From positions 1 to 56,581 of the forward strand of contig JAPMTY010000125.1 of NCBI GenBank assembly GCA_026552835.1: a DNA stretch of 56,581 nucleotides, in the 5' to 3' direction. Below, one piece after another: positions 25,510 to 49,182 of the stretch. The stretch is from Candidatus Methanoperedens sp. Its GTDB lineage: Archaea > Halobacteriota > Methanosarcinia > Methanosarcinales > Methanoperedenaceae. The stretch's first letter is position 1; each line of letters starts with the position of its first letter. The position numbers and the translations under genes are program-made. The notes beneath the pieces were generated by a model. That model had not been told where the DNA came from. It saw only the letters and a list, made by a program, of their open reading frames with translations, and did no database searches.

Positions 25510-25512
25510 AAA

Positions 25513-28118: not shown

Positions 28119-28122
28119 GTTT

Positions 28123-28986
28123 TCATGACCCTTTATTTTTCAAGAAATGGATGTAAAAAATTTTGATAAATCCAAAAGTCTTAAATGTTATTGACAGTTT
28201 TATCGCTCTTAAGAATGCAAAAGAAAAATATAAGCTAAAGTCGGTGTAATTTTCACTTGAATTTCTTGCACCTTCACAGTAATACATAAACCTATTTAAT
28301 AAACTCTCTGCGTTTTTATTTTCTATTGTGAACATCTTATGTTCACATATTGTATCTACAACTATGAAACTTACGAAATGCCTTCTGTATTTATCAATAA
28401 AATTATAATCACTGAAGTAAAGTTTAATTTTTTCGTTAAAACCCCCGATTTTTTCAAAAGCAGCCAGGCTTATGCACATGCCGCTGTTTAAGAGCGTCCT
28501 GTTTTTTATTGAGTTAAATCCTGCATTTATGCTTTTTAAATGAAAGCCCCTTTTCAGGTAATATCCTGACGGTGAATATATTTTATCATTTAACATCAAA
28601 ACAGGGGCGAACAGGACAGAATTTTTATAGGAATTCATGGCGTCAAAATACTTTGCCAAAGCGTCTTGCGGGAATGTGGTGTCCTGATCAAGAAGTAAAA
28701 GCCATTTTTTATTCAGTTCTTTGCCGATCTTAAATCCTTCATTGTATGCTTTACTGACTCCCGGATTTGACCTGTCGTGGATATAATGGATAATCCAGTT
28801 CTCAAAACGGGCTTCTTTTTCATATACTGGTTTCGGGCTGTTATCATAGACTATTATATCCATCTTTGATCCGGAATTTTTAAGATTTTTGCTTAATGAC
28901 AAAAAAGATTCGCAATGTTCTAATCTTGTTTCATAAAGTACCAATACTGCCAGCGTATTATTGACCTTTGATTGATTATTCTGCAT
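28123..28986 (-). CDS. family 2 glycosyltransferase (rhamnosyltransferase-like)
   Basis: A 287-aa GT2 enzyme with IIVYDNSPKP, NPGVSKAYNEGF and LLLDQDTTFPQD, the pattern of WbbL/rhamnosyltransferase-type enzymes. It is the first gene of the minus-strand run GT-GT-GT-GPT-AglB, so the promoter for the cluster should lie just beyond 28986. The specific sugar is not deducible. Confidence 0.88.
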   Translation of the reverse strand: MQNNQSKVNNTLAVLVLYETRLEHCESFLSLSKNLKNSGSKMDIIVYDNSPKPVYEKEARFENWIIHYIHDRSNPGVSKAYNEGFKIGKELNKKWLLLLDQDTTFPQDALAKYFDAMNSYKNSVLFAPVLMLNDKIYSPSGYYLKRGFHLKSINAGFNSIKNRTLLNSGMCISLAAFEKIGGFNEKIKLYFSDYNFIDKYRRHFVSFIVVDTICEHKMFTIENKNAESLLNRFMYYCEGARNSSENYTDFSLYFSFAFLRAIKLSITFKTFGFIKIFYIHFLKNKGS

Positions 28987-31602: not shown

Positions 31603-34600
31603 ATGACTAAAAAATCGAATAGTTTTAAAAATATAACAACTGTGCTTCTGGCACTGCTGCTTTTAGGTTTTGCGGCAGCGCCGGCGAGTGCGGCTAATAT
31701 TATTAACGACCTTATCGGTTCAGATGGGGCGACTCAAGCTCCCAACTCAACTGTTAATGTGTTCGTTAATACTACATCAAGAGTAGGTAATGATACAGTT
31801 AATCAAACTTATACCAATATGAGGGTAGAGCTGAACTTTTCAATTGTGTTCAATGCTTCATCACTCACATTTGGAGGTCGAACGAACCTTACTAATGTTA
31901 CAATAGTCTTCCCATCAGGGTTTACATTGCCAACGACCTACACAAATGCGAGCCTTGCAACTGCAGGATACTCTGCACTTCACTTGGATAATCTCACAGA
32001 TACTAGGGATTATGGTTTTAATACATCAAGTACAAATGTTACGATGGCTTCCAATGCCATTATCTTCAGTCTCAATCAAACAAACCTGTTAAACCTGACT
32101 GGAGGATACCCAATGCCAGGGAATGGTACACTTAATGCCACTTCTGGACTCGGATTGAATACTTTGTATATAAATGTTACAAATGTTACAATGCCAAGCA
32201 CAGCAGGTGTTTATAGCATCAATGTATCGGCATTTAATCAAACGAATGGTATGGGTACTAACTTTACTCTGGTAAACCTGACGGTAATTAGTGATACCAG
32301 GGTGCCAACCATAAACAGCGTGACTTTCTTGAATGGTTCCACAGGAATTGGTTCAAGGTTCGATGCTAGCAATAAAATATTCAACGTGACCCAAAATGCA
32401 ACACGTATCCCTATCCAGTTCATGGTGAATGAGTCAAATCTTCTGAATTCAGGTGTCAACTTCACAAGCATAAATGTTGTAATAGACTCAGGCACAGCTA
32501 ATGTAAAGCAGTTGTTGCTCAATGGAGTCTGGCCTTATGGCGATCAAAATCCGGTGCAAGTAGGACCATTAGTTAAGGTAGCTAATACTGTTAATAATGA
32601 CACTAGGAACGCCACAGTATCTATATCAGATGTTATGTGGGGTCCATTGGCAAACCTAACAGCAGGAAACACCACACAGGGAACTGCGCACACATTGACC
32701 ATTTCCGCACAAGATAACAGCACCAACGTAGCCACTAATTACAGCTTGACTTTCTTTGTCCCAAGGTTAATACTTGGAGCAAATAGGAGTGGTGATGTGG
32801 TTGCAGATGGATTAAGTGGAAGCAGTGTAGAAATAAGGGCACATTTGCTCAATCCGGATGGCAGTGCTTTGGCGGCCAAGGCAATATCATTCTCAAGTGA
32901 CGCGAACGTATCATTCAATCCGTCATCAGTTACTATGGATGGAGCTGGCAATGCCATATCAATCGCTACCTTCACTTCAGCAGGAACCCATACCATATCT
33001 GCATTCGCGGATAACGCTCAGCAGAACATTGCAGTAGTCACACAGGCAGCTGTCACGGGGGCAAAGATGGGAATTAACGGCAACACAGCCGTAACCAGTG
33101 CGTCCCTCGTAGCAAACGGTTCTGATACTGTAAATATAACCGTGCAGGCAGTCGATACCAGCGGAAATGCTGTACTTAAATCCGGTCTGGCTGTAAATGT
33201 ATTTGAGACAACAGGACAAGGGATTACCGCAACACCCCTGAGTGGAGCAACAGATACGAACGGCCAGTTCAATGTCACCCTGACATCAAACACCACTTCA
33301 GGAATCAGCTTGATCTTTAATTCCAACATTCAGACGACAGCAGGAACCACAGCAACCGCACTGAATACTGTGAGCGTAACTTTCGCTACAGGTTCACCAA
33401 GAAGGATGGGCGCTAATGCAAGCGTGGATATCAATTCCTTCCACAATTCAATCAATACAGTTGATGATGTGGTAGGCGTAGGAATAGTCTCACCGGGAGC
33501 CAATGTAACCATAGACAGCCTCGTAGCAGGCAACAGCACAGTTATAATGGCGAACCTGAGCGACGACGGAGGTCATGCCATAGTTGGCAGTACAGTTAAC
33601 TTTGCCTTGCAAGGCGCAGGCAGTTTAAGTGCGACCTCAGCGGTAACAAACGCATCAGGCTATGCAACAGTGACCTATATCTCAGGCACGACAGTAGGCA
33701 ACGGGACTGGTGTAATCAACATTAGTTCAGCAAGCAATCATTCGCTGTTCACCAATGTGAATGTGGATACAACGAACGGAAGTGCGAACCAGGTAGTACT
33801 GATCGCGAACAGGACAGGACTTGCAACAGGCACAAAGGCGGCCCTTAATGCTAGCATCAAGGACCAGTACGGCAACGCGGTAAACTACACTGGAAGGAAC
33901 ATAACGTTCAGCGTGATAACAGGTTCAACATTGGGTACATTGGATAAGACCTTCATGCTTACCGATGAAAAGGGCACAGCATACTTTAACTTCACAGCAG
34001 GCAGTACTGCAGGAACAGTAGTATTACAGGCTAATGTTACGAATTTGCTCCTGCCAGGAAGCCCGGGTAACCTGACAAATATAACCATAACCATAGGCGT
34101 GCCGGACTCGCTCACGTTAAGCCTGAACAAGACTAACATGCCCACAACGGCGAATGCTGACCAGGGTTCCCCGGTGGTTGCAACAGCGCAGCTTACCTCA
34201 GGCGGAGTAGCAATCGGAAGCCCTAATGTGAATATAACCTTCCTGATAACCAGAGGAAGCATGTTCCAGAAAGCGGGTTCTGATGGCCTCAACACAAGTA
34301 ACAACGGTACAAGCATTACTGTAAAGACAAACAATACCGGTCTCGCCCAGGTCCAGATCAACGGATCAGGTTCGGTCGAAATCGTCACTCTGGCAGCTTC
34401 AGATATTGACAACACGTCAATTCCCACACAGACCGCGTCTGTAACCTTCACAGGTGTTGCTTCAAGCTTCACCATTACGAACAGCTCGGTTGGCGCGCCC
34501 AGTACTGCGGGAATACGCAACACCAACATTACAGTGCAGCTATTGGACTCTGCAGGAAATAGCGTGGGTCAGGCAAGCACCGTAATCTTCACGGTGAGCG

Positions 34601-35991
34601 CGGGCAGCACATTGTCGGTATCAACAGGCACAACCAATTCAAGCACAGGACTATTGAATGTGATCTTGACTGCCAATACTACAACAAGTGCAGTATCCTC
34701 GACGGTCACAGCCTTCATATCCGGATTGGCTACCCAGTCGGTTACTGTTAACATGCCGCAGGGCGTGGGAGCAGGGACCCCTGTATTGACCACAATAACG
34801 GTCTCACCGGCAAGTACATCGGTAGTTGTAGGAAACAATGCAACCTTCACCGCAGCGCCGAAAGACCAGAGTGGTAATGCAATCACTGCAACAGTAACAT
34901 GGAGCAGCAGCAACACCACAGTGGGAACAATCACCGACGCAGGCGTGTTCACGGCACTGGCAGCGGGCACATCCACAATAACCGCAACAAACGGTAGTGT
35001 GAATGGAACTGCGACTGTAACAGTAACCGCAACACCTGTATTGACCACAATAACGGTATCACCGACAAACGCATCGGTAACTGTAGGCGACACTGCAAAC
35101 TTCACCGCAGCAACGCTTGACCAGTTCGGTAATGCAATCACTGTAACAGTAACATGGAGCAGCAGCGATACCTCGGTGGGAACAATCACCAACGCAGGCG
35201 TGTTCACAGCAGTTGCAGCAGGTACATCCACAATAACCGCAACAAACGGTAGTGTGAATGGAACTGCGACTGTAACAGTAACTGCAGAAGAAATAGTTGG
35301 CAATGATACCGTTGGTATCTATCGTGACGGCGCTTTCTATCTCAGGAACAGCAACAGTGCTGGCAATGCTGACGTTACGCCATTCATATATGGACTCAGC
35401 ACCGATACACCTCTCGTAGGTGACTGGAACGGCGATGGGACTGCTACCGTTGGTATCTATCGTGCCGGTGCTTTCTATCTCAGGAACAGCAACACTGCTG
35501 GCAATGCTGACGTTACGCCATTCGTATTTGGAGTAGCCGGCGATATACCGCTAGTAGGTGACTGGAACGGCGATGGAACAGATACCGTTGGTGTCTATCG
35601 TGATGGTACCTTCTATCTCAGGAATAGCAACGATGCAGGTAATGCTGACGTTACGCCATTCGTATTTGGAGTAGCTGGCGATATACCACTCGTAGGTGAC
35701 TGGAACGGCGATGGAACAGATACCGTTGGTGTCTATCGTGATGGTACTTTCTACCTCAGGAATAGCAACACTGCAGGCAATGCTGATGTTACGCCATTCG
35801 TATATGGAATCAGCACTGACACACCTCTTGTAGGCGACTGGACTGGCTCTGGCACAGATACCGTTGGTATCTACCGAAGCGGTGCATTCTACCTCAGGAA
35901 CAGCAACACTGCAGGCAATGCGGATATTACGCCATTCGTATATGGAATAAACACCGATACACCTCTCGTAGGCAACTGGGACGGACAGTAA
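31603..35991 (+). CDS. giant surface protein with Ig-like domains and C-terminal five-repeat propeller
   Basis: A 1462-aa secreted protein. The signal peptide covers about 1-30 (KNITTVLLALLLLGFAAAPA then ASA). The middle contains several Big_1/invasin-like Ig domains (for example from about 392 on) and two BID_2-type Ig domains at about 1063-1145 and 1146-1230, each beginning LTTITVSP. The C-terminus (about 1234-1462) has five repeats of about 46 residues with consensus TVGIYRxGxFYLRNSN, AGNAD and PLVGDWNGDGT. N-x-S/T sequons are very frequent, so heavy N-glycosylation is likely. No sorting signal or TM helix is seen at the C-terminus. Probable adhesin or cell-envelope component; the ligand is unknown. 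Confidence 0.88.
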   Translation: MTKKSNSFKNITTVLLALLLLGFAAAPASAANIINDLIGSDGATQAPNSTVNVFVNTTSRVGNDTVNQTYTNMRVELNFSIVFNASSLTFGGRTNLTNVTIVFPSGFTLPTTYTNASLATAGYSALHLDNLTDTRDYGFNTSSTNVTMASNAIIFSLNQTNLLNLTGGYPMPGNGTLNATSGLGLNTLYINVTNVTMPSTAGVYSINVSAFNQTNGMGTNFTLVNLTVISDTRVPTINSVTFLNGSTGIGSRFDASNKIFNVTQNATRIPIQFMVNESNLLNSGVNFTSINVVIDSGTANVKQLLLNGVWPYGDQNPVQVGPLVKVANTVNNDTRNATVSISDVMWGPLANLTAGNTTQGTAHTLTISAQDNSTNVATNYSLTFFVPRLILGANRSGDVVADGLSGSSVEIRAHLLNPDGSALAAKAISFSSDANVSFNPSSVTMDGAGNAISIATFTSAGTHTISAFADNAQQNIAVVTQAAVTGAKMGINGNTAVTSASLVANGSDTVNITVQAVDTSGNAVLKSGLAVNVFETTGQGITATPLSGATDTNGQFNVTLTSNTTSGISLIFNSNIQTTAGTTATALNTVSVTFATGSPRRMGANASVDINSFHNSINTVDDVVGVGIVSPGANVTIDSLVAGNSTVIMANLSDDGGHAIVGSTVNFALQGAGSLSATSAVTNASGYATVTYISGTTVGNGTGVINISSASNHSLFTNVNVDTTNGSANQVVLIANRTGLATGTKAALNASIKDQYGNAVNYTGRNITFSVITGSTLGTLDKTFMLTDEKGTAYFNFTAGSTAGTVVLQANVTNLLLPGSPGNLTNITITIGVPDSLTLSLNKTNMPTTANADQGSPVVATAQLTSGGVAIGSPNVNITFLITRGSMFQKAGSDGLNTSNNGTSITVKTNNTGLAQVQINGSGSVEIVTLAASDIDNTSIPTQTASVTFTGVASSFTITNSSVGAPSTAGIRNTNITVQLLDSAGNSVGQASTVIFTVSAGSTLSVSTGTTNSSTGLLNVILTANTTTSAVSSTVTAFISGLATQSVTVNMPQGVGAGTPVLTTITVSPASTSVVVGNNATFTAAPKDQSGNAITATVTWSSSNTTVGTITDAGVFTALAAGTSTITATNGSVNGTATVTVTATPVLTTITVSPTNASVTVGDTANFTAATLDQFGNAITVTVTWSSSDTSVGTITNAGVFTAVAAGTSTITATNGSVNGTATVTVTAEEIVGNDTVGIYRDGAFYLRNSNSAGNADVTPFIYGLSTDTPLVGDWNGDGTATVGIYRAGAFYLRNSNTAGNADVTPFVFGVAGDIPLVGDWNGDGTDTVGVYRDGTFYLRNSNDAGNADVTPFVFGVAGDIPLVGDWNGDGTDTVGVYRDGTFYLRNSNTAGNADVTPFVYGISTDTPLVGDWTGSGTDTVGIYRSGAFYLRNSNTAGNADITPFVYGINTDTPLVGNWDGQ

Positions 35992-36172: not shown

Positions 36173-39082
36173 ATGTTGAATAAATTGTCATTAACTATAC
36201 TGGTCTTAGTTTTGGCGATAAGCATGGTTTGCGCTAAAACTAATCAAAGCGATATGAAGGATGACTTATTAAATAACCATATAATACCCAATTTATCAAA
36301 TGAAAAAATAAGTTCAACTCTAAATCAGAAAATCGCAAATGCAATACCACAAGATGATATTCCTGTGATCATTTTCATGAAAAAAACTGATAAAATAACA
36401 TCAAAGATGTCAGTCCGGTCTTTGCTTTCATCAACAGTAGAATCAAATGGCGGAAAAATAGGACATAAATATGAATTCATAGATGCATTTTCAGCAAAAA
36501 TACCGGCTGCAAAAATTTCCAGCCTATCAAAGATGCCCGAAGTCGGAAAAATATACTATGATCAGATTGTGTCGCTTCCCCCGCAGCCTTTGCCAGAACC
36601 TGGTATTTTATTGACACGATCCACGCAGGCGATAGGAGCGAACTATGTGTGGAATACGTATGGGTACACTGGGACAGGCATCAAAGTCGCGATTATAGAT
36701 ACAGGCATAGACTACAATCATCCAGACCTTGGGGGAGGGTTTGGCCCTGGAAAAAAGGTGGCAGATGGATACGATTTTGTGAACAATAACGAAAACCCTA
36801 TAGATGACAATGGACACGGTACCCATGTGGCAGGAATCGTGGCAGCGAACGGCGGACTAAAAGGTGTGGCGCCAGGTGCCACATTATTTGCAGTCAAGGT
36901 ATTGAACAGCGCAGGAATGGGTAGCACCTCAAACATAATCGCAGGAATCGACTGGAGCATAGCCCACGGGGCCAACATAATAAGTATGTCTTTTGGCGGC
37001 ACAGCTGTGCCAAACGATGAATTCGCAGATATAGACTCCATCGTATCCGACTCTGCTGTGGAAAAAGGCGTGGTGGTGGTAGTAGCAGCAGGAAACGAAG
37101 GACCTGGCACAAGTTCAATAGATTCTCCGGCCTCTGCCAGGAAAGTGATAACAGTTGGCGCTTCAGATAGCTCCGGCACAGTAACGATTTCAGATGATAA
37201 GATAGCTCCTTTCAGCAGCCGCGGACCTTCTGCCTTTGGAAGGCTTGACCCTGAAGTTGTTGCACCCGGTGTTAACATACTCTCCACAGTTCCGACAGGC
37301 ACCTGCGAACTTTGTGACCCCTCCGGGTATAACAGTCTGTCCGGCACTTCCATGGCAACACCGATGGTTTCTGGTTCAGCGGCTCTTATTCTCCAGAAAA
37401 ATCCGGCTTTTACTCCGGCACAAGTTCGAGCTATGCTGATGCATACTGCAAGCGATCTTACCAGTTCAAATTATCATGTATTTGAGAAAGGTGCAGGAAT
37501 AATAAACCTCGCAAATGCATTTACATACAACATCAGCGCAGGAATCAATGGCGACGACAGGTGGGAAGAAAGCGTACTTCCGGGTTTTAGCACGATTGGA
37601 AGTCTGGCATTGAACAACAATAACACCCAACCGGTCAATTTTACCTTTTCACTTGAAACAATGACAGATATTGGAAAAGAAAATAGCATTCCATTATCGA
37701 GTTTTACCCTTCCCGGTTATGAAATTGTAGATGCCGGCAGCATCAAAACCATCAATATAACCTTTACTCCACCAGCTGGAGTAAAACCCGCAATATATGG
37801 AACAACTTTGATAGTATCTAACTCAACATATGGAACGCTCAGGATCCCTGTAGTTATCACGGTACCGATGATGGGAAGTGGTTCAATTCAGGGAACCGTA
37901 AATTATGGTACCGCTTCTACCAGTGATTTGATATACTATAAACTAAAATCATACAATGGCACTACCCTTAATGCCTATCTCAACTGGACAGACGGCAGGG
38001 ACGACCTTGACTTGTTCCTTTTTGCCCCGAACGGCGATCTCCTGAATTATTCAATATTAGGTTACGGTGTATCAGAACATGTTTCTCTCAGTAATATGGT
38101 ATACGATGAATACTGGTTAGCAGTACATGCATATAGCTTAAACAATATCGAAAGTTACAATTTGAATGTATCTTATCCATCGGGATCAAAAGGGAAGCTT
38201 GAGGTAACACCATCAATAGCACAAAGGGTCATAACAAATAATGAGATAAAGAATATCACATTCTCTATCAACAATGATGCTATTGCAAAGTCGGATATGA
38301 GTTTGAATGTTAAAAAACTGATGCCAGGCAGGAATTACTTTTCAAAAGGTATAATAGCCAACACCGGCTCGTTTTATTCACGTGAATGGGATGTTATCGC
38401 AAGCGGGATGAATCTTAATAATACGAGGTACATGAATGTAACCCTGCAGTGGGTGAATCCATCAAATGATCTCGATCTTCTTCTTGAGTATTATGATGGA
38501 ACCCAATGGCAGGAAACCCGATTTGAATCAGCACATAATAATCCACAGCTTAACAAGGCATGGGAGAAGCTGGAAAATATAGATATCCAGCAATATCTCA
38601 AAAGTTATCCCAATTTTGGCATATTTATTAAAAATAACGGAGGCTTCGAGAGCTACAATCTTACAATCAACTTTACAGACACGGCTCCGTGGAGTGGAGC
38701 GTCAGTTGACGAAACCTCAATTTCGTTGAGTCCGGGACAGACAAAACAGGTAAACGTTACAATAAATGGCTCTCAACTAACCCAGAATTTAACAGACCTG
38801 GTATTTACTATTCAGGATTCAACGGAAGATTATGCTGCAATTCCTATTAGATTGAATTTGAATGCAACCGAAATAAGAGGCGACGTTAACAGGAATGGCA
38901 TCCGCGATACAGGGGATACGACTTTAATGCTCGGATACCTCGTCGAATTACCAACTCCTCCGGAATACCTGCCCATATTGCCAATAGGCGACATGAACTG
39001 CAACGGTATAATAGACGCAGGTGATGCCACTTTAGTATTAAGAGACATAGTCGGCCTGGACATACCCAGGTGCTGGGAGTGA
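36173..39082 (+). CDS. secreted subtilisin-like protease (S8) with C-terminal dockerin
   Basis: A 969-aa exported serine protease. Signal peptide about 1-21; an I9-like propeptide about 60-135; S8 catalytic domain about 150-440 with Asp176 (IIDTGIDY), His215 (DNGHGTHVAG) and Ser393 (SGTSMATP). Beta-sandwich and two PPC-like domains follow (about 450-890). The C-terminus (about 902-969) is a type I dockerin with two calcium loops, DVNRNGIRDTGD and DMNCNGIIDAGD. The next gene, 4 bp on, encodes a cohesin, the dockerin's partner, so the protease is probably docked to the cell surface. A signal-peptide cleavage site and autoprocessing are expected by family. Confidence 0.93.
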   Translation: MLNKLSLTILVLVLAISMVCAKTNQSDMKDDLLNNHIIPNLSNEKISSTLNQKIANAIPQDDIPVIIFMKKTDKITSKMSVRSLLSSTVESNGGKIGHKYEFIDAFSAKIPAAKISSLSKMPEVGKIYYDQIVSLPPQPLPEPGILLTRSTQAIGANYVWNTYGYTGTGIKVAIIDTGIDYNHPDLGGGFGPGKKVADGYDFVNNNENPIDDNGHGTHVAGIVAANGGLKGVAPGATLFAVKVLNSAGMGSTSNIIAGIDWSIAHGANIISMSFGGTAVPNDEFADIDSIVSDSAVEKGVVVVVAAGNEGPGTSSIDSPASARKVITVGASDSSGTVTISDDKIAPFSSRGPSAFGRLDPEVVAPGVNILSTVPTGTCELCDPSGYNSLSGTSMATPMVSGSAALILQKNPAFTPAQVRAMLMHTASDLTSSNYHVFEKGAGIINLANAFTYNISAGINGDDRWEESVLPGFSTIGSLALNNNNTQPVNFTFSLETMTDIGKENSIPLSSFTLPGYEIVDAGSIKTINITFTPPAGVKPAIYGTTLIVSNSTYGTLRIPVVITVPMMGSGSIQGTVNYGTASTSDLIYYKLKSYNGTTLNAYLNWTDGRDDLDLFLFAPNGDLLNYSILGYGVSEHVSLSNMVYDEYWLAVHAYSLNNIESYNLNVSYPSGSKGKLEVTPSIAQRVITNNEIKNITFSINNDAIAKSDMSLNVKKLMPGRNYFSKGIIANTGSFYSREWDVIASGMNLNNTRYMNVTLQWVNPSNDLDLLLEYYDGTQWQETRFESAHNNPQLNKAWEKLENIDIQQYLKSYPNFGIFIKNNGGFESYNLTINFTDTAPWSGASVDETSISLSPGQTKQVNVTINGSQLTQNLTDLVFTIQDSTEDYAAIPIRLNLNATEIRGDVNRNGIRDTGDTTLMLGYLVELPTPPEYLPILPIGDMNCNGIIDAGDATLVLRDIVGLDIPRCWE

Positions 39083-39086
39083 AAAT

Positions 39087-39791
39087 ATGAGAAAATATGT
39101 AATTATGATATTATTTATTGTTCTAATCTCCTCAGCGCAAGGGGCTGGCGAATCCGTGAGTCTTGGATCATATGACATAAATGTGAACTCGGTGGTCGAA
39201 GTTCCTATTGTAATTAATAACGCGGCAGATGTTGCCGGTGGCAAAGTAACGGTTGGCTATAATTCTTCCGTGATCGTTTGTGTTGGTTTTTTGCCCGGGG
39301 ATTTTGGCGCCCCGATCACAAAGGTTGACAGTTCAGGCACGTTTGTGGAAGTTTCATCGGCTCTTGCTACCGGCACAGGTAAAAATGAAGCAATACTTGG
39401 AATCATCAAATTCCGTGGTGTTGGGGCGGGTAAAAGTGATCTTACGATTGAAAACGATTATTATTTCAATGATATAAAAGGTAATTTATACACTCCTGTT
39501 GCTAAAAACGGTTCGATAACAGTAGGAGCATCGGCATCGCAAGCACCGGTAATAGTCCAGGCAACTCCACAGAAAACGCAAAGTTCTGTGCCTTCACCGG
39601 TTCCGACTTCAGGGCAGGCAACGATAAAAACCACGCAGCCATCGACTCCACCAGCGGCATCAACACAGGGTGGCTTAAAGCGGCCCAACGAAACTGCAGT
39701 CTTGCCTGTAGAAACGAAAAAAACATCTGGATTTGAAGCAGGCATTGTAATATTTATATTGTTTACCTTGTCCTTAAATAGAAAAAAATGA
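39087..39791 (+). CDS. cell-surface cohesin protein with C-terminal sorting/anchor segment
   Basis: A 234-aa protein: signal peptide about 1-19, then a cohesin domain about 20-147 (AGESVSLGSYDINVNSVVEV at the start; GGKVTVGYNSSVI and LGIIKFRGVGAGKSDL later). A Pro/Thr/Ser linker (about 150-205) leads to a terminal SGFEAGIVIFILFTLSL followed by basic residues, which resembles PGF-CTERM-type archaeosortase signals. It would bind the dockerin of the protease encoded 4 bp upstream and hold it at the membrane. The exact sorting-signal class is uncertain. Confidence 0.85.
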   Translation: MRKYVIMILFIVLISSAQGAGESVSLGSYDINVNSVVEVPIVINNAADVAGGKVTVGYNSSVIVCVGFLPGDFGAPITKVDSSGTFVEVSSALATGTGKNEAILGIIKFRGVGAGKSDLTIENDYYFNDIKGNLYTPVAKNGSITVGASASQAPVIVQATPQKTQSSVPSPVPTSGQATIKTTQPSTPPAASTQGGLKRPNETAVLPVETKKTSGFEAGIVIFILFTLSLNRKK

Positions 39792-40026
39792 CAAAATCCA
39801 ATTTTTAAAATAATGGCATGAGTTAGACTACTTTTAAAGTGGGGAGATAATCGCAGCGCAGTCGGTGGCAAAATCTACGACGTAGAAAGATGTATTTACA
39901 AAAGTATCTTTTCCCAAAAAATTTTCCTCATTCTAAATAATTGGTAGATATTCGATATAAATCAATAACAAGCGGTGACTAAAACATTTTAATAAATTCA
40001 ATGAGCATGATATTTGTAATAAGGTT

Positions 40027-40118
40027 TAAATTGCGGCTCGACCAAACTGCGTGACCTCACCGGGTGATTCGACTTTTGCAGCTACTTTATAGCGGCTATG
40101 GCGCGTTTCACTCAAAAT
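40027..40118 (+). ncRNA. conserved structured leader, copy B (candidate cis-regulatory RNA)
   Basis: Homologue of 31475-31566, ending 39 nt before the start of the 1844-aa protein. Differences from copy A include a replaced central hairpin and paired G-to-A changes (TCGGCC to TCGACC and TCGGCT to TCGACT), while the flanking GCGTTTCAC and CTTTTGC blocks are unchanged. The rest of the 39792-40157 gap is AT-rich with no gene seen. Confidence 0.5.
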
Positions 40119-40157
40119 ATCAAAGTATATTAATAAAAAAACAAGGAAATTAATATT

Positions 40158-43100
40158 ATGAATAAAAAAACGAATGGTTTTAAAAATATATTAACTGTGC
40201 TTCTGACACTGCTGCTTTTAGGGATTGCTGTGGGGCCGGCGGACGCGGCGGCAGACATTACTATTGCTGATGCAAGAATCACAACTTCGAATAAAGTGGT
40301 AGTAACTTTTGATGAAAATGATGGAGAGCTTGATTCTATAAATTATACCAAGTGGCATATTGATGTAGGTGACAATGGAGCAACTCCATTAAATTCAACG
40401 GGCGTAGTTCTCACTAAGGCTACATCCCCTGGAAATATTACTCTAGTTTTTGCGGGGACACCCTTTAGCGACACTAATAAATCGTATAATGCATCGTGGG
40501 GTTTGTATGTTGAATCTTCAGGTGTAAAAGACGATAATGGAGATACTAATACAATAATTGGACATGCTGCTTCTATTGCAATTGCAGATGGACAGACCCC
40601 AACATTCATCGCTGCACGAACTGCCCTGAACACAATAGTCCTGACCTTCAGCGAACCAGTTGATGCAGCAGACATGGCAACTGCGGCATGGACGGTTGCA
40701 GGCGCAACAGTCATTTCAGTAACCGATCCTGCTTCAAGCACCACATTAACACTGACAACAACAGGTTTGACAAACACAAGTTCAACACCTTCCGTCTCAT
40801 ACGTTGCTGCATCAGGAACTGTTAAAGATGTATCTCCAGCAAAAAATGAAGTAAAAGACGGTTCGACTGCAAATGCATCCGACAAGGTCCCTCCGACCTT
40901 TACCGCTGCAAGAACTGCCTTGAACACAATAGTCCTGACCTTCAGCGAACCAGTTGATGCAGCCGACACGGCAACAGCGGCATGGACAGTTGGAGGCGCA
41001 ACAGTCAATTCAGTAACCGATCCGGCTTCAAGCATTACATTAACAATAACGACAACAGGTTTGACAAGCACAAATTCAACACCCGCTGTCTCATATGTTG
41101 CTGCTTCAGGAACCGTTAAAGATGTATCTGCGGCACAAAACGAAGTTGCAGATGGTGCAACTGCAATTGCATCCGACTATGTCAAACCAACCGTGACATC
41201 TGCAACTTTGAATTATGACACTGGTGTATTAAATATCACATTCAGTGAAACCATATATGCAGATTTAACAAATGCATCAAAGTTCCATCTGGACAATATT
41301 TCCGGCACAAATGATGTAAATCTAACAGATGCAACAACAACGGTTACTAATGGAACAATATTATCCTTCACGCTAACCGAAGAACAGAGAGCAGCAGCAT
41401 TTAACATCTCTGGAATGAATGGCGGCGACGGTGGAGCAATAGTATTGGATATAGATGCAGGTGGTGTTACTGATCTTGTTAATAATACAAATGATGCAGA
41501 CCTGGATAACACGGTGACTGAGACCTTTACCGCTGCTAACACAACTGCGGTTATTACACTTAACAGCACCGCTTATGTATCTGGCACAGCAACCGTATCG
41601 GTCAATGATTTCGATATGAATACAATTATAAATTCGAACCAAACCCTGACCGTGAATCTCACCAGTTCAACGACTTCAACAAACCTTACCTTGACACTGA
41701 CCGAAACTGATGTAAATTCAGGCATTTTCAATGGCACGTTCACTTTCGGCAGCGCTTCAAGCGGAACAACGCTGGGAGTCTCGGATGGCGATACCATCTA
41801 TGCGAAATATCCAGATAACGACAGCGTCTTACGTTCGACTGATGCAACATTTAATGCAGTTGCAACTAAACTTACCATTAATTCAACAACCTATGGCAAC
41901 TTAACAGACAGAAACGGCGCTGCTGTTACCCCGGCGAGTATGGTTGCAGGCGTGGCTACAGTCTTTAATATCAATGCCACTGACGCCAATGGTGTCCTGG
42001 ATACAGGTTTCAATGGAACAATGACAATATCAGTCAATGGCAGCGGTACTTTGAACCTGGCATCATATACATTTGTGGCTGCTGATAATGGCTCAAAGAG
42101 TATTTCAGTTACAGACAATGTTGCAGAGACGATTGCAATAAATTTTAACTCTTCATCTGTCACAACAAACGCTACGGCAACACAGGCAGTAGTGCCAAAC
42201 AGGCCGTATAAGCTGTTATTCAACAGTTCAATGCCTCTTAGCACACTCACAAATTCACTGCAAGTTAAAATCTCGGTTGCTGATGCCTATAATAACCTGG
42301 TCGATGCATCAAAGCTCACCGGTGATAGTTTCCCGACAAATGCGACACAACTTGGAGGAACCGATGGACTTGGCCTTGGGATCAAGTTCAATTTATCACT
42401 GAGTTTGCCAACGCCGCCTCCGGTAAGTGCTTACCTTGACACCACTTCAGTAGTAATTACAAATGCAAATGTGAACAATTATGTAGCATATGTCAATAAT
42501 ACTGTCGATGAGGTTGTTACATTGAAGGCAACAGCTGTGTTCTTCTCCCCTGCCTGCATAATCACAAATTTGTCTTTCATGGGGGCTGTTAGCGATATGC
42601 TTGTTACAACAAACAAGACCGGTAATACATCACATGCAAACAATGGTGCCAATAGCCTGGGTATAATTAACATTTCTGCACAGTTGAGGGATGCTTCAGG
42701 AAATGCGCTTACTGTGCCCAATGAAGTTATCACCTTCAATTCAGATAACACAACTGTTTTGAATGTGGCGGGACAAACTGCCACGACCAACGCCAGCGGT
42801 ATCGCTATTATTACTATTTCAACAACAAATGTTGCAGGAAATGCAGTTATAACTGCAACAGACTCCACCGGTCGTGAAGGATTGGTGACTGTTTCAACAA
42901 CAGCTATCGTTAATAATGTGAACAGTGAATTGGTTGTTAATCCTACAGCAAGGGCAGGCGATAATATAACAGTGTATGCTACCCTTCATGATTATGCAGG
43001 CACAGTAATGCCAGCAGGGACGACAGTATCGTTCAATATCACCTCAGGTGACTTGACAAGTACCCTTAACAGTGTAGCGAAAGGCACTATTGTAACAGCC

Positions 43101-45692
43101 GATACGAACAGTACAGGTATTGCAACAGTTACATTCAGGGCCTCCAATGCCAGTGGCGTTCATTCGATTAATGCAACAGTCATTGATGAACTGGGTGACA
43201 TCAAACAAGTTGGTACATCAGAACAAACGATTACCGTATCGCCGGGCGATGCGGCAGTACTGGTTGTATCGCCGGCAAGCAAGGGTCTTACAAATATTAA
43301 AGGTGCAAATGTCACATATAACGTTACGGTATATGATGCATATGACAATGTGAACACAAGCGCAATTAAGGTAAATGTTTCAACGACCGATACGACTCTT
43401 GGGAACATGACAGTAAATTCAACAGTCGTCAACAACTATGCGGTTATAACAACATCAAGTGGAATCGGCTCAATGCTTTATATGATCAACTCTACCACTG
43501 CAGGCAGTGCAACCCTGACATTTGCCGTATATAAGAATGAGACCGGCCAGTTGCCAGGTCTTTTCACTAATTTCACAGATAGTGTTCTTGTATCGACAAG
43601 TGGAGCAACCCGTGTGACAATAACGCCAGGTTCCACAGGGGCAGCAGTAAATACCAATATCAGCTTGACCGTAAATCTTACAGATAATGACGGAAACTTG
43701 ATTGGTATTGACGGCACAAATATTAATCTGGTCTCAACAGGAGGATCCCTCAGCGCCAGTTCGGTTAATTCTTCTGGAGGCCAGGGTTCAACCAACCTGA
43801 CTTCATCAACAGCTGGTGATGTTACAGTTACAGTATATGTTGCAGGTTTGAGCCCCGCAGCAACAACATTGACCTTCTCCGGCAATGCAACAAAGTTTGT
43901 TGTGACACCTGACATCTCTTCGGTGGTAGTCAATGGAACAATAAACATTACCATTCAGGCATATGATTCGTTGAATAACAAGGCTGCAATCTATAATGAT
44001 GCGGTAATAAGCACCCGGACAGGTGTTATATCTTCAATAAGTGGCCTGACGTTTAGCGCAACATCGTTCACTTTCAATGCAACGGGTTATGCTGGAGTAA
44101 AAGTTACATCTGCAACGGCTGGAACTTACACAATTCAGGCAGTTGCACTTGGTTTAGTGAATACGACTGACGTCACGTTCACGACAGCGCCAATCCCGGC
44201 ATTGACCGTATCCGCAACTCCTGCTACTGTAACAGCAGGCACGCCAACAACTGTGACCTTCAATGTGGCCAGTAATGGTTTTGCGATAAACAATGCGATA
44301 GTAACACTGAGCGGAGTAGCAACCGGTAGCGGTATCACAGATTCCAGCGGACTCACTGTTATAAGCGTGAACGCCATAAGCTCAGGTACAATAACAGCAA
44401 CCGCAAGCCTGAGTGGCTATACTGACGGAACAACAGGTATTACTGCAAAGTCAGCAGAAATATCGATCCCGGCATTGACAGTATCCGCAACTCCTGCCAC
44501 TGTAAGAGCAGGTACGCCAACAAGTGTGACCTTTGATGTGACCAGTAGTGGTATTGCTGTACCCAATGCGGCAGTAACACTGAGTGGAGTTGCAACCGGT
44601 AGCGGCATCACAAATGCCAGCGGATTCGCTGTTATAGGCATGAATGCCACAAGCGCAGGCAAAATAACAGCAACTGCAAACCTGGGTGGCTATACTGATG
44701 GAACAACAACCATTACTGTAAATACAGCAGAAATACTGGCCCCTGCTTTGACCGTATCCGCAACCCATGCAAATGTAAAAGCAGGCACGGCAGCAAGTGT
44801 AACCTTTAATGTGACCAGTAGTGGTATTGCGATAGCCAATGCGAAAATAACCCTGGGAGGAGTAGCAACTGGCAGCGTCAACACAAATACCAGTGGACTC
44901 GCTGTTTTAAGAATGAATGCCACAAGCAAAGGCACAATAACAGCAACTGTAAACAAGAGTGGCTATAATGATGGAATAATAAATATTACTGCCGAAGAAG
45001 CAGAAATAGTAGTGGGAACCGAAACTGTTGGTATCTATCGCCACGGTGCTTTTTATCTCAGGAACAGCAACGATGCAGGCAATGCCGACTCAGCCTTCAT
45101 ATATGGAATAGACGGCGATATACCACTTGTAGGCGACTGGAACGGCGATGGCGCTGATACCGTTGGTATCTGTCGTCATGGTTCGTTCTATCTCAGGAAC
45201 AGCAATGATGCAGGCAATGCCAACTCAGCCTTCATATATGGAATAGACGGCGATATACCACTCGTAGGTGACTGGAACGGCGATGGCACTGACACCGTCG
45301 GTATCTATCGTCATGGTTCGTTCTATCTCAAGAACAACAACAGTGCCGGGAGTGCTGACCTGTCTTTCGTATATGGAATTGACGGTGATACACCTCTCGT
45401 CGGTGACTGGGACGGCGATGGCACTGACACCGTCGGTATCTATCGTCATGGTTCGTTCTATCTCAGGAACAGCAACGATGCAGGCAATGCCAGCTCAGCC
45501 TTCATTTATGGAATAGACCGCGATACACCCATCGTAGGCGACTGGAACGGCGATGGCACTGATACCGTTGGTATCTATCGTCACGGTGCGTTCTATCTCA
45601 GGAACAGCAACAGTGCAGGGAATGCTGACCTTTCCTTCATATATGGAATAGACGGCGATATACCTCTGGCGGGCGACTGGGACGGACAGTAG
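40158..45692 (+). CDS. giant surface protein with SbsA/Big_5-like and Ig-like domains and five-repeat propeller
   Basis: An 1844-aa secreted protein. The signal peptide (about 1-32, KNILTVLLTLLLLGIAVGPA) is nearly the same as in the 1462-aa protein. Domains in order: three to four SbsA_Ig/Big_5-like modules (two near-identical ones of about 98 aa share TALNTIVLTFSEPVDAAD); Ig-like domains including LTETDVNSGIFNGTFTF; invasin-like repeats; three 89-aa repeats (about 1346-1613) each starting ALTVSAT; and the five-repeat propeller (about 1622-1844; TVGIYRHGxFYLRNSN). Many N-glycosylation sequons. A likely adhesin or sheath protein. Confidence 0.88.
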   Translation: MNKKTNGFKNILTVLLTLLLLGIAVGPADAAADITIADARITTSNKVVVTFDENDGELDSINYTKWHIDVGDNGATPLNSTGVVLTKATSPGNITLVFAGTPFSDTNKSYNASWGLYVESSGVKDDNGDTNTIIGHAASIAIADGQTPTFIAARTALNTIVLTFSEPVDAADMATAAWTVAGATVISVTDPASSTTLTLTTTGLTNTSSTPSVSYVAASGTVKDVSPAKNEVKDGSTANASDKVPPTFTAARTALNTIVLTFSEPVDAADTATAAWTVGGATVNSVTDPASSITLTITTTGLTSTNSTPAVSYVAASGTVKDVSAAQNEVADGATAIASDYVKPTVTSATLNYDTGVLNITFSETIYADLTNASKFHLDNISGTNDVNLTDATTTVTNGTILSFTLTEEQRAAAFNISGMNGGDGGAIVLDIDAGGVTDLVNNTNDADLDNTVTETFTAANTTAVITLNSTAYVSGTATVSVNDFDMNTIINSNQTLTVNLTSSTTSTNLTLTLTETDVNSGIFNGTFTFGSASSGTTLGVSDGDTIYAKYPDNDSVLRSTDATFNAVATKLTINSTTYGNLTDRNGAAVTPASMVAGVATVFNINATDANGVLDTGFNGTMTISVNGSGTLNLASYTFVAADNGSKSISVTDNVAETIAINFNSSSVTTNATATQAVVPNRPYKLLFNSSMPLSTLTNSLQVKISVADAYNNLVDASKLTGDSFPTNATQLGGTDGLGLGIKFNLSLSLPTPPPVSAYLDTTSVVITNANVNNYVAYVNNTVDEVVTLKATAVFFSPACIITNLSFMGAVSDMLVTTNKTGNTSHANNGANSLGIINISAQLRDASGNALTVPNEVITFNSDNTTVLNVAGQTATTNASGIAIITISTTNVAGNAVITATDSTGREGLVTVSTTAIVNNVNSELVVNPTARAGDNITVYATLHDYAGTVMPAGTTVSFNITSGDLTSTLNSVAKGTIVTADTNSTGIATVTFRASNASGVHSINATVIDELGDIKQVGTSEQTITVSPGDAAVLVVSPASKGLTNIKGANVTYNVTVYDAYDNVNTSAIKVNVSTTDTTLGNMTVNSTVVNNYAVITTSSGIGSMLYMINSTTAGSATLTFAVYKNETGQLPGLFTNFTDSVLVSTSGATRVTITPGSTGAAVNTNISLTVNLTDNDGNLIGIDGTNINLVSTGGSLSASSVNSSGGQGSTNLTSSTAGDVTVTVYVAGLSPAATTLTFSGNATKFVVTPDISSVVVNGTINITIQAYDSLNNKAAIYNDAVISTRTGVISSISGLTFSATSFTFNATGYAGVKVTSATAGTYTIQAVALGLVNTTDVTFTTAPIPALTVSATPATVTAGTPTTVTFNVASNGFAINNAIVTLSGVATGSGITDSSGLTVISVNAISSGTITATASLSGYTDGTTGITAKSAEISIPALTVSATPATVRAGTPTSVTFDVTSSGIAVPNAAVTLSGVATGSGITNASGFAVIGMNATSAGKITATANLGGYTDGTTTITVNTAEILAPALTVSATHANVKAGTAASVTFNVTSSGIAIANAKITLGGVATGSVNTNTSGLAVLRMNATSKGTITATVNKSGYNDGIINITAEEAEIVVGTETVGIYRHGAFYLRNSNDAGNADSAFIYGIDGDIPLVGDWNGDGADTVGICRHGSFYLRNSNDAGNANSAFIYGIDGDIPLVGDWNGDGTDTVGIYRHGSFYLKNNNSAGSADLSFVYGIDGDTPLVGDWDGDGTDTVGIYRHGSFYLRNSNDAGNASSAFIYGIDRDTPIVGDWNGDGTDTVGIYRHGAFYLRNSNSAGNADLSFIYGIDGDIPLAGDWDGQ

Positions 45693-45704
45693 GATATAAC
45701 AATA

Positions 45705-45736
45705 TGCGGGGGATTTTTCCCCACATTTTTTTTTAT
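45705..45736 (+). terminator. hairpin plus T-run terminator
   Basis: A GGGG-loop-CCCC hairpin with an ATTTTT-type loop, then a run of T, 12 nt after the stop of the 1844-aa gene; close copy of the terminator at 36005. Confidence 0.75.
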
Positions 45737-45821
45737 ATATTTTTGACCGTTATGCATGAACATATTGTGATATGTGCATAATTTTTTATTCTTTAAGATT
45801 GTAATATTGGATTGGTAGCCC

Positions 45822-45986
45822 ATGCAGTTGAAATTTAGTGAAATAAATCCATATCATATTTCTGCCTGCAGGCTGGGAATAACAAAAATATGTTTTCATT
45901 GGGTAGCAACAATTGCCAATCGGAAAGAAAAACAATGTCCTGTAAAACAGATTATAAACAGATTAGCTAACATAGGAATATTCTGA
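45822..45986 (+). CDS. possible 54-aa protein in an otherwise empty gap
   Basis: An ATG-to-TGA frame of 54 codons in the 527-bp gap between the terminator and the vWA gene. The product has three cysteines and a basic C-terminal half (EKQCPVKQIINRLANIG). No ribosome site stands out and no family is recognised. It may be chance. The remainder of the gap (about 45990-46225) is AT-rich promoter-like DNA. Confidence 0.2.
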   Translation: MQLKFSEINPYHISACRLGITKICFHWVATIANRKEKQCPVKQIINRLANIGIF

Positions 45987-46225
45987 CATCACTATCAGAA
46001 TTATCAATTGGCGTCAATTCTCAATCATGTTTTACGTTGTTTCTTGTTCACAAAAAAAGACAAACGAAACCTATAAGTATGTTAGTATCATAATTATTAT
46101 GTTGGTCAAAAATTTCGCCCTATCAATACTTACGAAGTTTTTGCAGAAGACTCAAGGGGAAGTTTTGAGTTATTCTCTTCATTGAATATATCAAATTCGT
46201 CTGCCTTGAATGAGGTGAGTTGAAT

Positions 46226-46801
46226 ATGGTAAAAAACAAATCAAAAATAAACAAGATTATGATCGTGACACTGATGATTTTGACAGTTTTCATCGGTATT
46301 GGAGTACAAGCAGTTGCTGATTCAGGCTCTGGTGTTGGCTACGCAAGTAATGATGCGCCCAAACCCTTTATACCACCAGCCGTAAAAGAATCAGCCGTTT
46401 TAATAAAAGATATCCATCTGACGTCGGTTTCGCCTACGACTTTGACCGCGACGCTTACGCCTGGTAATTCTACAATCGAAACCAAGATAGTAAGTTTGAC
46501 CGGCTCAATACCTAAGGCAGACGTAATATTTTCTTTTGATCTTACAGGAAGTATGAGTGGAACTTTAAGTACTGCCCAGATGCAGGCAATTGACATTATG
46601 ACACGGCTTGATACTGTGATTACAGATGCTAACTATGGGGTAACATCGCACATGGATTATCCGGGCACTTATAATTCATTCGGATACTCTACTACATATG
46701 GTAGTGCTTTTTCTGGCGACTATGCCTATGGCCTCAATCAGTCAATTACAAGTAACAGGACTGCGGTAAAGAACGCAATAAATGGTTTTAGAGATTGGTA
46801 A
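46226..46801 (+). CDS. vWA-domain surface protein, 5' part (frameshifted)
   Basis: N-terminal part of a secreted von Willebrand factor A protein. I prefer the ATG at 46226, preceded by GAGGTGA, over a TTG two codons earlier. It has a signal peptide (hydrophobic MIVTLMILTVFIGIGVQAVA) and then the vWA domain starting at VIFSFDLTGSMSG, whose DxTGS carries the MIDAS metal site. The frame ends at 46801 within the vWA domain, and the continuation is in another frame from about 46790. One indel near 46785-46800 would restore a single protein of about 595 aa. Confidence 0.7.
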   Translation: MVKNKSKINKIMIVTLMILTVFIGIGVQAVADSGSGVGYASNDAPKPFIPPAVKESAVLIKDIHLTSVSPTTLTATLTPGNSTIETKIVSLTGSIPKADVIFSFDLTGSMSGTLSTAQMQAIDIMTRLDTVITDANYGVTSHMDYPGTYNSFGYSTTYGSAFSGDYAYGLNQSITSNRTAVKNAINGFRDW

Positions 46802-48017
46802 TGGATATGACGGTCCTGAGGACTATACACGTGTTTTTTATGAAAGCTATGCTGATACGAGAGTAGGATGGCGTTCTGGTGCTAAGAAACTATTTGTCCA
46901 TTTTGGAGATAGTGTTCCACACGATGACAACCTGTTCGAAGGGATATCAGGAACTAGTTCAACCTTATGCCTATATGGAACATATACTACCAGTACCAAT
47001 GTATGCTCAACAGGAGGAGACCCTGGACGTAATGAGATCATGGATGTTACGATAGACCCAACCCAGATAGGTGTAGGAAATGACGATCTTGACCTTCAGG
47101 ACGTACTCGCAGCCATGAAGAGTAATAACGTGATACTTCTGGAAGTGCATAATTCTGGCAGTTCCAGTTCTGATTCAACTCTTTGGAATAACTGGGTCAA
47201 CAGGACAGGTGGAGGATTATATACAATAGCAACAGATGGCACAGGTCTGGCAAATGCCATTCTAAACCTGACCAATACATCAGCTTCAAACATAGATACG
47301 CTCTCCCTGGTGACAGTACCAAGTTCGTATGCAAGCTGGATATCAACCAATCCTGTATCATTCACCAACTTTACAATACCATCCAGTGGACTGACTAAGA
47401 CATTTACTGTAACAGTCACCCCACCAGCCGATACACCTGAGGGATTGTATAATTTCAAAATACAGGCAATCGCAGATGGAGGCTTGATCGGTGAACAGAC
47501 AGTTTCCATAACAGTTAGGGGAGTAGCAACCGGCAGGGTTGTAAAAATCGCAAATAATTACACCGTCGCCGTGGCTGAAACAAAAGCTGTACCTGTCCAA
47601 CTTATAAACGGCAGCGATGTGGCAGGCGCCCAAACTACAATAACGTTTGACCCATCCACAGTTACAGTGGATTCTGTAACGGCGGGAGACTTTTTGACCC
47701 CGGTGGCAAACATCGATAATATAGCAGGCACAGTTACGATTGCAGTTGCAAGAACAGATGCTGTTGGAATGAGCAGTGCAACTCTTGCGACAGTGACCTT
47801 CAGAGGAGTAGCAACCGGATCAAGTGTCCTGAGTATCGCTGGTTCATCTTTAAACGATGCAAGCGGAACGATCCTGGTGGCGCCCACAGAAGTAAACGGG
47901 AAGATAACTGTAGGCGGCGGCGATTGCGGACTCAATGGCGACCTGAATCATAATGGAAGACTCGATTCAGGAGATGCAACCCTGTTACTTAGAAAGGTTG
48001 TAGGACTGGACCCTTAA
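46782..48017 (+). CDS. vWA-cohesin-dockerin surface protein, 3' part (frameshifted)
   Basis: Second part of the split gene. It resumes the vWA domain at GNGYDGPEDYTRV and continues through LFVHFGDSVPHDD. An Ig-like domain follows (about 165-245), then a cohesin domain (about 250-375; VAETKAVPVQLINGSDVAGA, LATVTFRGVATGSS), and a single dockerin-type calcium loop at the end (DLNHNGRLDSGDATLLL). The ATG at 46782 is only an open-frame start without a ribosome site; translation alone would make a product lacking a signal peptide. Having both cohesin and dockerin, the intact protein could bridge partners. Confidence 0.7.
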   Translation: MVLEIGNGYDGPEDYTRVFYESYADTRVGWRSGAKKLFVHFGDSVPHDDNLFEGISGTSSTLCLYGTYTTSTNVCSTGGDPGRNEIMDVTIDPTQIGVGNDDLDLQDVLAAMKSNNVILLEVHNSGSSSSDSTLWNNWVNRTGGGLYTIATDGTGLANAILNLTNTSASNIDTLSLVTVPSSYASWISTNPVSFTNFTIPSSGLTKTFTVTVTPPADTPEGLYNFKIQAIADGGLIGEQTVSITVRGVATGRVVKIANNYTVAVAETKAVPVQLINGSDVAGAQTTITFDPSTVTVDSVTAGDFLTPVANIDNIAGTVTIAVARTDAVGMSSATLATVTFRGVATGSSVLSIAGSSLNDASGTILVAPTEVNGKITVGGGDCGLNGDLNHNGRLDSGDATLLLRKVVGLDP

Positions 48018-48030
48018 AGAGTGAGGAAGT

Positions 48031-49182
48031 ATGAAAAATAGAATTGCATATAAAATATTGCTGGTACTTGCGGTAATTACCGCAAGTACATCTTTAGCCT
48101 TTGCTGCGGGTGAATCTGTCAGTGTAGGAACATTCACAGTTGCAGCGGGTTCTAACGTAACAGTGCCGGTTGTGGTTGGAAATGCTAACCTTGTCGCAGG
48201 AGGGTCAGTAAGGGTGGTATTTAACCCTGCCATCGTACATGCTGCCACTGTTTCAAGTGGAGACTTCGGTGGTCCCACCACTAATATCAACAACACAGCA
48301 GGCTTTGTATTTGCGGCTGTTGCATCAACAACTGCTTCTGGAACAAGCAGTGCGACGCTTATGAATATAATATTCACAGGCATCTCAGCAGGTACGACCA
48401 GCCTGACTTTTTCATCTGCCGACCTGAATTATCAAGATGGTAGTTTAGTAACCCCAACGACAACGAGTGGTTCGATAACGGTCACTGGAGGAGGGGCTGG
48501 GACTGGCACTGATACCGTTGGTATCTATCGTAATGGTTCGTTCTATCTACGTAACAGCAACAGTGCCGGTAATGCTGACCTTTCCTTCATATACGGAGTG
48601 GACGGCGATATACCACTCGTAGGTGACTGGAATGGCGATGGCGTTGATACAGTTGGTATCTATCGTCATGGTGCGTTTTATCTACGTAACAGCAACAGTG
48701 CCGGGAGTGCCGACATGTCCTTCATATATGGAGTGGACGGCGACATACCGCTCGTAGGTGACTGGAACGGCGATGGCACTGATACCGTTGGTATCTATCG
48801 TCACGGTGCGTTCTATCTACGTAACAGCAACAGCGCCGGTAATGCTGACCTTTCCTTCATATATGGAGTAGACGGCGATACGCCTCTCGTGGGTGACTGG
48901 AACAGCGATGGCACTGATACCGTTGGTATCTATCGTCATGGTTCGTACTATCTCAGAAACACCAACACTGCGGGGAATGCTGACCTTTCCTTCATATATG
49001 GAGTAGACGGCGATACACCTCTCGTAGGTGACTGGACAGGCTCTGGCACTGATACCGTTGGTATCTATCGTGCTGGTGCGTTCTATCTCAGGAACAGCAA
49101 CAGCGCCGGTAATGCTGACATGTCCTTCATATATGGAATATCCACCGATACACCTCTGGTGGGCGACTGGAACGGAAGTTAA
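48031..49182 (+). CDS. secreted cohesin protein with five-repeat propeller
   Basis: A 383-aa exported protein: signal peptide about 1-25 (ILLVLAVITASTSLAFA), cohesin domain about 26-152 (AGESVSVGTFTVAAGSNVTV; TLMNIIFTGISAGTTSL), then five repeats of 45 residues (about 160-383) of the same family as in the two giant proteins. The repeats are very similar at the DNA level, hinting at recent duplication or gene conversion. It follows the vWA gene by 13 bp and is probably in one operon. It could present the propeller on a dockerin-bearing partner. Confidence 0.88.
   Translation: MKNRIAYKILLVLAVITASTSLAFAAGESVSVGTFTVAAGSNVTVPVVVGNANLVAGGSVRVVFNPAIVHAATVSSGDFGGPTTNINNTAGFVFAAVASTTASGTSSATLMNIIFTGISAGTTSLTFSSADLNYQDGSLVTPTTTSGSITVTGGGAGTGTDTVGIYRNGSFYLRNSNSAGNADLSFIYGVDGDIPLVGDWNGDGVDTVGIYRHGAFYLRNSNSAGSADMSFIYGVDGDIPLVGDWNGDGTDTVGIYRHGAFYLRNSNSAGNADLSFIYGVDGDTPLVGDWNSDGTDTVGIYRHGSYYLRNTNTAGNADLSFIYGVDGDTPLVGDWTGSGTDTVGIYRAGAFYLRNSNSAGNADMSFIYGISTDTPLVGDWNGS

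Follow-up and report, generated by a model that had tools for sequence, protein, structure and literature searches.

Candidate outsourced surface anchoring of a dockerin-bearing protease in Candidatus Methanoperedens

Archaeal dockerin-cohesin bonds are said to have been verified (PMC9012536), and a pair from Archaeoglobus fulgidus has been used as an orthogonal tether (PMC9705933). Dockerins and cohesins have been reported from anaerobic methanotrophic archaea (ANME) with their functions left open, proteins with S-layer and dockerin domains occur in most ANME-2c genomes (PMC9012536; PMC5244752), and the bacterial partners of ANME also have cohesin and dockerin proteins (PMC10553843). In Clostridium thermocellum the double dockerin of an S8 protease (dDoc_0689) shows a preference for the cohesin of a scaffoldin bound to the cell, and anchoring at the cell surface has been proposed for this protease (PMC12484212). 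Here we describe a stretch of Candidatus Methanoperedens sp. DNA (the window, which is the whole contig JAPMTY010000125.1; 56,581 bases, GC fraction 0.40) in which an S8 protease ending in a two-cysteine dockerin is encoded directly upstream of a cohesin. We consider it rather probable that the protease is tethered by an outsourced, split anchor, its dockerin being captured in a predicted interaction by the neighbouring membrane-anchored cohesin. Outsourced surface anchoring thereby becomes a concrete candidate for what cohesins and dockerins do in archaea without cellulose degradation.

A dockerin-tagged protease and the adjoining cohesin

The protease gene (36173..39082, + strand) encodes a subtilisin-like S8 protease of 969 residues with a signal peptide, an I9-type propeptide, a Peptidase_S8 catalytic domain (residues 167-433, 36671..37471; Pfam PF00082, 1.5e-69) and a two-cysteine dockerin at its C-terminus (residues 900-969, 38870..39079) that ends in RCWE at the stop. 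This dockerin holds two D-x-N-x-N-G-x-x-D-x-x-D loops, the two repeats of a type I dockerin, and its profile matches dockerins in the PDB. Against Pfam PF00404 it reaches 12.6 bits and misses the curated cut-off of 22.9 (E 0.16), while a relative of the same subtype (G025:C122) scores 24.2 bits. The next gene on the strand (39087..39791) encodes a protein of 234 residues composed of a signal peptide, a cohesin (residues 20-150, 39144..39536), a linker, a CTERM-like transmembrane-type helix (residues 215-232, 39729..39782) and a basic end. Structure prediction with AlphaFold2 (AF2) gives the jelly-roll beta-sandwich of a cohesin, with a predicted local distance difference test score (pLDDT) of 82-97 over the block, and the best Foldseek match is the A. 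fulgidus cohesin 2xdh (2.8e-11). The possibility that this protein is not a cohesin, raised by a Pfam score below cut-off and by PDB sequence matches without a cohesin, is ruled out by the predicted fold. An earlier note made from these letters had read a two-loop dockerin at the end of the protease and a cohesin in the gene 4 bp downstream, and both assignments are confirmed. Within the last two protease codons lies GGGAG (39075..39079), which reads as a ribosome-binding-like site for the cohesin gene, and the two genes are probably translationally coupled.

Our model is that the protease would be exported and its C-terminal dockerin would fold around calcium. Outside the cell the cohesin encoded next to it would catch the protease, with the C-terminal helix of the cohesin protein either staying in the membrane or being processed onto it. 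With 4 bp between the genes and translational coupling probable, plug and socket would be made together, and the dockerin would do the job of the fused PGF-type anchor of an orthologous protease. The binding itself, its calcium dependence and the membrane topology of the cohesin protein are all predictions from sequence.

Protease orthologues point to an exchange at this site. The 34 family genomes contain five orthologues, 67-74% identical, whose alignment reaches residues 895-909 and stops before the dockerin; a sixth (G034, 63% identity) is cut at residue 401. An alternative C-terminal module is visible in four of the five. The orthologue of G016 has a PGF-pre-PGF domain (TIGR04213, 141 bits against a cut-off of 28) and a PGF-type hydrophobic tail; that of G024 ends in repeated domains that we read as CARDB-like (Pfam DUF11 at 18.7 bits, below 24.6) and its neighbours carry similar endings; that of G012 goes on through an Ig-like domain to a further propeller-like repeat and is cut there; and that of G035 is cut after the start of a CARDB-like domain. 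The fifth (G022) is cut by its contig at the dockerin position and is uninformative on the C-terminus. Three further orthologues (P0131-P0133), 81-82% identical to the window protease over residues 60-890, keep the dockerin, and with the window protease they are set apart from the other orthologues in the tree (ultrafast bootstrap, UFBoot, 81). The pattern suggests a single gain or loss of the dockerin on an otherwise stable protease body, and in one orthologue, that of G016, a membrane anchor seems to sit at the site that the dockerin occupies.

The same module recurs as a C-terminal tag on other cargo. With residues 890-969 as the query, 22 proteins were retrieved, that of the window included, and the module is at the very C-terminus in 21; the exception is a beta-helix protein (P0149) without the tag in its last 200 residues. 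Both cysteines are conserved in all 21 tagged proteins, one of which (P0148) is cut after the second cysteine. By precomputed Pfam the 21 proteins other than the window's comprise six S8 proteases, five S-layer proteins (PF07752), six beta-helix proteins, among them P0145 with a cupredoxin domain, and four others that include an M4 metalloprotease. No hydrophobic C-terminal segment was found in any of the 21 tagged proteins. Untagged S-layer proteins were sampled as the longest open reading frame (ORF) at 17 of 30 loci, 12 of them cut on the 3' side. In all five complete ones a hydrophobic segment lies close to the C-terminal end (four within the last 45 residues and the fifth, as judged by eye, just upstream), and one exceeds the PGF_CTERM cut-off (27.8 against 24.5). 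Since the tag is found on proteins without a hydrophobic end and untagged S-layer proteins have an anchor-type end, the dockerin seems to take the place of a membrane anchor on two unrelated kinds of cargo. By analogy with the head-to-tail clasp known in other dockerins (PMC4728124), the two cysteines may form a staple resembling that clasp. At E 1e-4 the two-cysteine profile has matches in 10 of 237 genomes of the class; those in G025 and G035 are strong and full-length, and the other eight genomes give incomplete or weak matches (1e-5 to 9e-5).

Gene order and co-occurrence of dockerin loops and cohesins

Gene order was compared in 33 stretches around family cohesins and in the window. Cohesins were called by a profile built here from 26 of 58 Pfam cohesin matches and the three window cohesins, and dockerin loops by pattern. 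The stretches come from 33 of 34 contigs, G015:C20 being excluded because it nearly duplicates G015:C5, and 4 of 49 cohesin genes without an upstream neighbour in their stretch were left out. A same-strand dockerin-loop gene lies no more than 150 bp upstream of 17 of 45 cohesin genes and downstream of 1 of 43 (Fisher 2.8e-5), the window supplying three of the 45 genes and two of the 17 pairs. Non-cohesin genes in the same stretches have a dockerin-loop gene upstream in 3 of 183 cases (4.5e-11 against 17/45) and downstream in 7 of 187; the stretches were chosen for holding cohesins, and upstream against downstream is the fairer control. Counted per protein cluster, the asymmetry is 12/20 against 1/19 at 50% identity (p 4e-4) and 8/12 against 1/11 at 40% (p 0.009). 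In 7 of the 17 pairs the two genes overlap by 4 bp.

The two families also occur together. By Pfam, 17 of the 34 genomes have both cohesin and dockerin, 15 have neither and two have only one (one of each kind), with a hypergeometric probability, worked out by hand, of 1.3e-7 for genomes that are related and not independent. Incompleteness alone does not explain the genomes with neither, because four of these 15 assemblies are at least 3.2 Mb. Pfam misses the two-cysteine dockerin, and G035 is thus counted as lacking one. In a tree of 58 cohesin modules, for which a stricter loop pattern gave 15 pairs instead of 17, all four cohesin genes beside a window-type loop fall in one clade of five (UFBoot 98), which 0 of the 11 beside other loop types enter. 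The clade unites the three window cohesins with two from G021; its fifth member is the window cohesin at 46782, part of a protein that itself has a window-type loop at its end. The upstream neighbours of the clade cohesins are very different proteins. Taken with the anchor or dockerin at the same site of orthologous proteases and the same dockerin on S-layer proteins, the dockerin-then-cohesin order points to candidate pairs.

Further modules of the locus and competing explanations

Downstream on the + strand, a frameshifted gene is divided into an N-terminal part with a signal peptide and a MIDAS-like motif (46220..46801) and a C-terminal part (46782..48017) with a cohesin (47544-47912) and, at its very end, one dockerin loop (47940-48014) in place of the two repeats of a dockerin. 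This loop may be no more than a broken dockerin. In the G021 genome a lone C-terminal loop ends a gene that lies 1 bp upstream of a cohesin gene, and in two other genes a similar last loop is preceded, 33 residues earlier, by another D-rich loop; the loop pattern used misses degenerate loops. On G021:C20 (L057) three small genes end in a window-type loop, and two of them lie 1 bp before, or overlap by 4 bp, the genes of very large proteins (2625 and 1553 residues) with a cohesin at the start. The following window gene (48031..49182, + strand) encodes an adaptor-like protein with a signal peptide, a cohesin and a five-repeat C-terminal domain (48514..49179), for which AF2 predicts five four-stranded blades over residues 161-380 (pLDDT 94-98), a five-bladed beta-propeller. 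The single-loop gene and this cohesin-propeller gene would form a second pair that repeats the order of the first, with the propeller as the attachment part.

The same propeller ends two large adhesin-like proteins encoded on the + strand to either side of the protease gene. One (31603..35991) has a Big_1/Big_2/Invasin_D3 stalk and the propeller from about 35308; the other (40158..45692, 1844 residues) has an Invasin_D3/Big_1-like stalk below Pfam cut-offs and the propeller from about 45024. The propeller is a second, parallel attachment module that links these adhesins with the cohesin protein at 48031, and it may bind glycan. Each repeat has a GDWNGDG-like turn, which may correspond to the D-rich AB loop of VCBS-supercluster propellers. 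Five repeats were counted in 111 of 124 arrays, drawn from 120 of 349 propeller matches with a five-repeat query that favours this number. PVL-type lectins are among the listed structural matches; tachylectin-2, which has five blades, is absent from those listed and is not thereby excluded. Relatives named Candidatus Methanoperedens (P0002, P0003) are 91-95% identical over the propeller. The same C-terminal propeller is widespread on archaeal and bacterial secreted proteins (P0001-P0120) and is mostly missed by Pfam; by precomputed Pfam its carriers include archaellin, CAP/YkwD, deacetylase, S8 and glycoside hydrolase families. On G025:C123 (L125, 6305-11844) three tandem genes end in this propeller, and just 3' of the second lies a decayed dockerin tail of 25 residues (G025:C123:38118-38192), a hint that the propeller replaced a dockerin there. 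The locus is better read as a protease on an outsourced membrane anchor within a cluster of surface genes that have exchangeable C-terminal modules.

Several results weigh against the split anchor. Of the probable archaeosortase-type tail that the earlier note gave the protein at 39087, a helix, an SGF/PGF motif and a basic end are present; no NCBIfam CTERM model reaches its cut-off (the Heimdall-CTERM score is 14.2 bits, with a cut-off of 24), and three relatives score 12-15 bits or nothing, again below cut-off. This cohesin has no close relative among the 34 family genomes (best match 33%) or among 111 genomes from the family to which G001 belongs (best match 32%), and a scan of genome contigs found none either. 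The contigs of P0131 and P0132 have 9,930 and 19,265 bases, and no contig named for the eight other cohesin clusters has either length; these proteases may not lie beside a close relative of this cohesin, and the exact pair is perhaps not conserved. Of the gene order that the note proposed to look for in related genomes, a dockerin-loop gene upstream of a cohesin recurs; the exact pair was not seen. With clustering at 35% identity four clusters remain and the asymmetry is lost (3/4 against 1/4, p 0.49). The clade shared by loop type and cohesin, coming from two genomes, may reflect one ancestral pair. In G035, a draft assembly of unstated completeness, three copies of the two-cysteine dockerin stand without a cohesin by Pfam at E 0.01, and a search with the cohesin alignment gave a tail-part match only.

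This last genome, with its three tags and no detected cohesin, suits an explanation in which the dockerin serves as a general surface tag at the C-terminus and is received by a different cohesin or by a partner that is not a cohesin, such as an S-layer component, the adjoining cohesin serving another client and the adjacency reflecting only shared regulation. Conservation of the tag, with both its cysteines, at the end of many kinds of protein fits as well. The unstated completeness of the G035 draft weakens that support, and the upstream bias of dockerin-loop genes, the co-occurrence of the families and the co-segregation of loop type with cohesin clade argue for dedicated pairing, such that we regard a receptor elsewhere as doubtful. 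A larger surface complex, in which cohesin-dockerin contacts join the protease, the single-loop protein, the cohesin-propeller protein and the adhesins, and in which the propeller of 48031 would make that protein an adaptor between protease and glycan, could be suspected from three cohesins and three dockerin loops within one 13 kb stretch, from the clade shared by the cohesins of 48031 and 39087 and from the common propeller. Yet no window protein has more than one cohesin, hence no scaffoldin, the single-loop gene is frameshifted, and neither adhesin holds a cohesin or dockerin detectable by Pfam, the cohesin profile or the dockerin loop pattern, and the complex appears distinctly improbable. 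Of the proteolytic and adhesive surface complex in the earlier note, a non-cellulosic surface-docked protease is supported, with gene order favouring neighbour pairing; protease and adhesins in one complex are not supported in that form, and of its frameshifted vWA protein with cohesin and single loop, all is upheld except the vWA domain, which has the MIDAS-like motif and no confirmation by Pfam. Its fourth protein, a cohesin joined to a five-repeat domain, is sustained. Surface proteases are known to trim surface proteins, and the protease gene lies between two large adhesin genes, so docking might just bring a maturation or release enzyme close to its adhesin substrates; neighbouring genes differ at the orthologous protease loci (L059-L062), and of the explanations considered this one has very little to recommend it.

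The split anchor for the window protease remains our preferred reading. A far wider proposal, which we offer tentatively and think less likely to be right than wrong, is that in some Methanoperedens-like archaea a disulfide-stapled dockerin would be a universal C-terminal address tag on proteases, S-layer, beta-helix and cupredoxin proteins that give up their own membrane anchor and dock, in a reversible and calcium-dependent way, with a small number of membrane-anchored cohesins. Part of the S-layer would then be docked rather than embedded, and the propeller would be a second exchangeable tag, for glycan.

Genomic surroundings and comparison with known systems

Upstream of the surface genes, on the - strand (23350-28986), are genes for an AglB-type oligosaccharyltransferase and four glycosyltransferases (one of Pfam family 4, three of family 2), likely an N-glycosylation cluster adjoining them. 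Further out lie type I restriction-modification genes (6728-13037, + strand; HsdM, HsdS and an R-type subunit, with a Bro-N protein between), a HEPN domain protein adjoining a minimal nucleotidyltransferase as a toxin-antitoxin-like pair (1861-2608, - strand) and, a few kb 3' of the surface cluster, a DDE transposase (53634-54845, + strand) that fits a variable region. The adenine deaminase beside the cluster is 78 and 77% identical to those of two Methanoperedens genomes and 80% to that of a genome titled Methanosarcinaceae archaeon; by these matches the exact family is not certain, and ANME-2d or a close relative is the most likely source. Around this gene the three longest flanks compared (L001-L003) show no conserved synteny, and the surface cluster therefore looks strain-variable. 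A viral origin of the locus is without support, as viral contigs matched neither the dockerin nor the cohesin patterns used here.

A cellulosome is ruled out by the single cohesin per window protein, which leaves no scaffoldin, and by a scan of the 38 window ORFs in which no glycoside hydrolase exceeded cut-off, in keeping with the earlier note's view that the locus is not cellulose-degrading. The system works like a non-cellulosomal cohesin-dockerin pair. Its closest counterpart is that of A. fulgidus (2xdh; ORFs AF2375/AF2376), which is archaeal and non-cellulosomal and has the same cohesin fold as 39087 at 22-25% identity. We know of no protease cargo for the A. fulgidus proteins, and the available accounts of them do not describe the two-cysteine dockerin or the CTERM-like tail of the partner. 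The clostridial dDoc_0689 resembles the window protease as an S8 protease with a dockerin and a proposed surface anchoring; it differs in being bacterial, in belonging to a cellulosome with scaffoldins and in its double dockerin, and the accessible part of that report mentions no adjacent dedicated cohesin gene. Among beta-propellers of the VCBS supercluster (fungal PVL lectin, tachylectin-2, integrin; PMC8023676), PVL has seven blades against the five of the window propeller. The ANME reports concern the same archaeal group as the window, and in the portions available they do not include C-terminal exchange, two-cysteine dockerins, gene pairs or protease cargo; nor were anchor exchange, the two-cysteine tag and the gene-order rule found in the open-licence literature, as far as its accessible text extends. 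Cohesins and dockerins of ANME are already known, and what this locus would add to them, as the new element, is the anchor-substitution logic.

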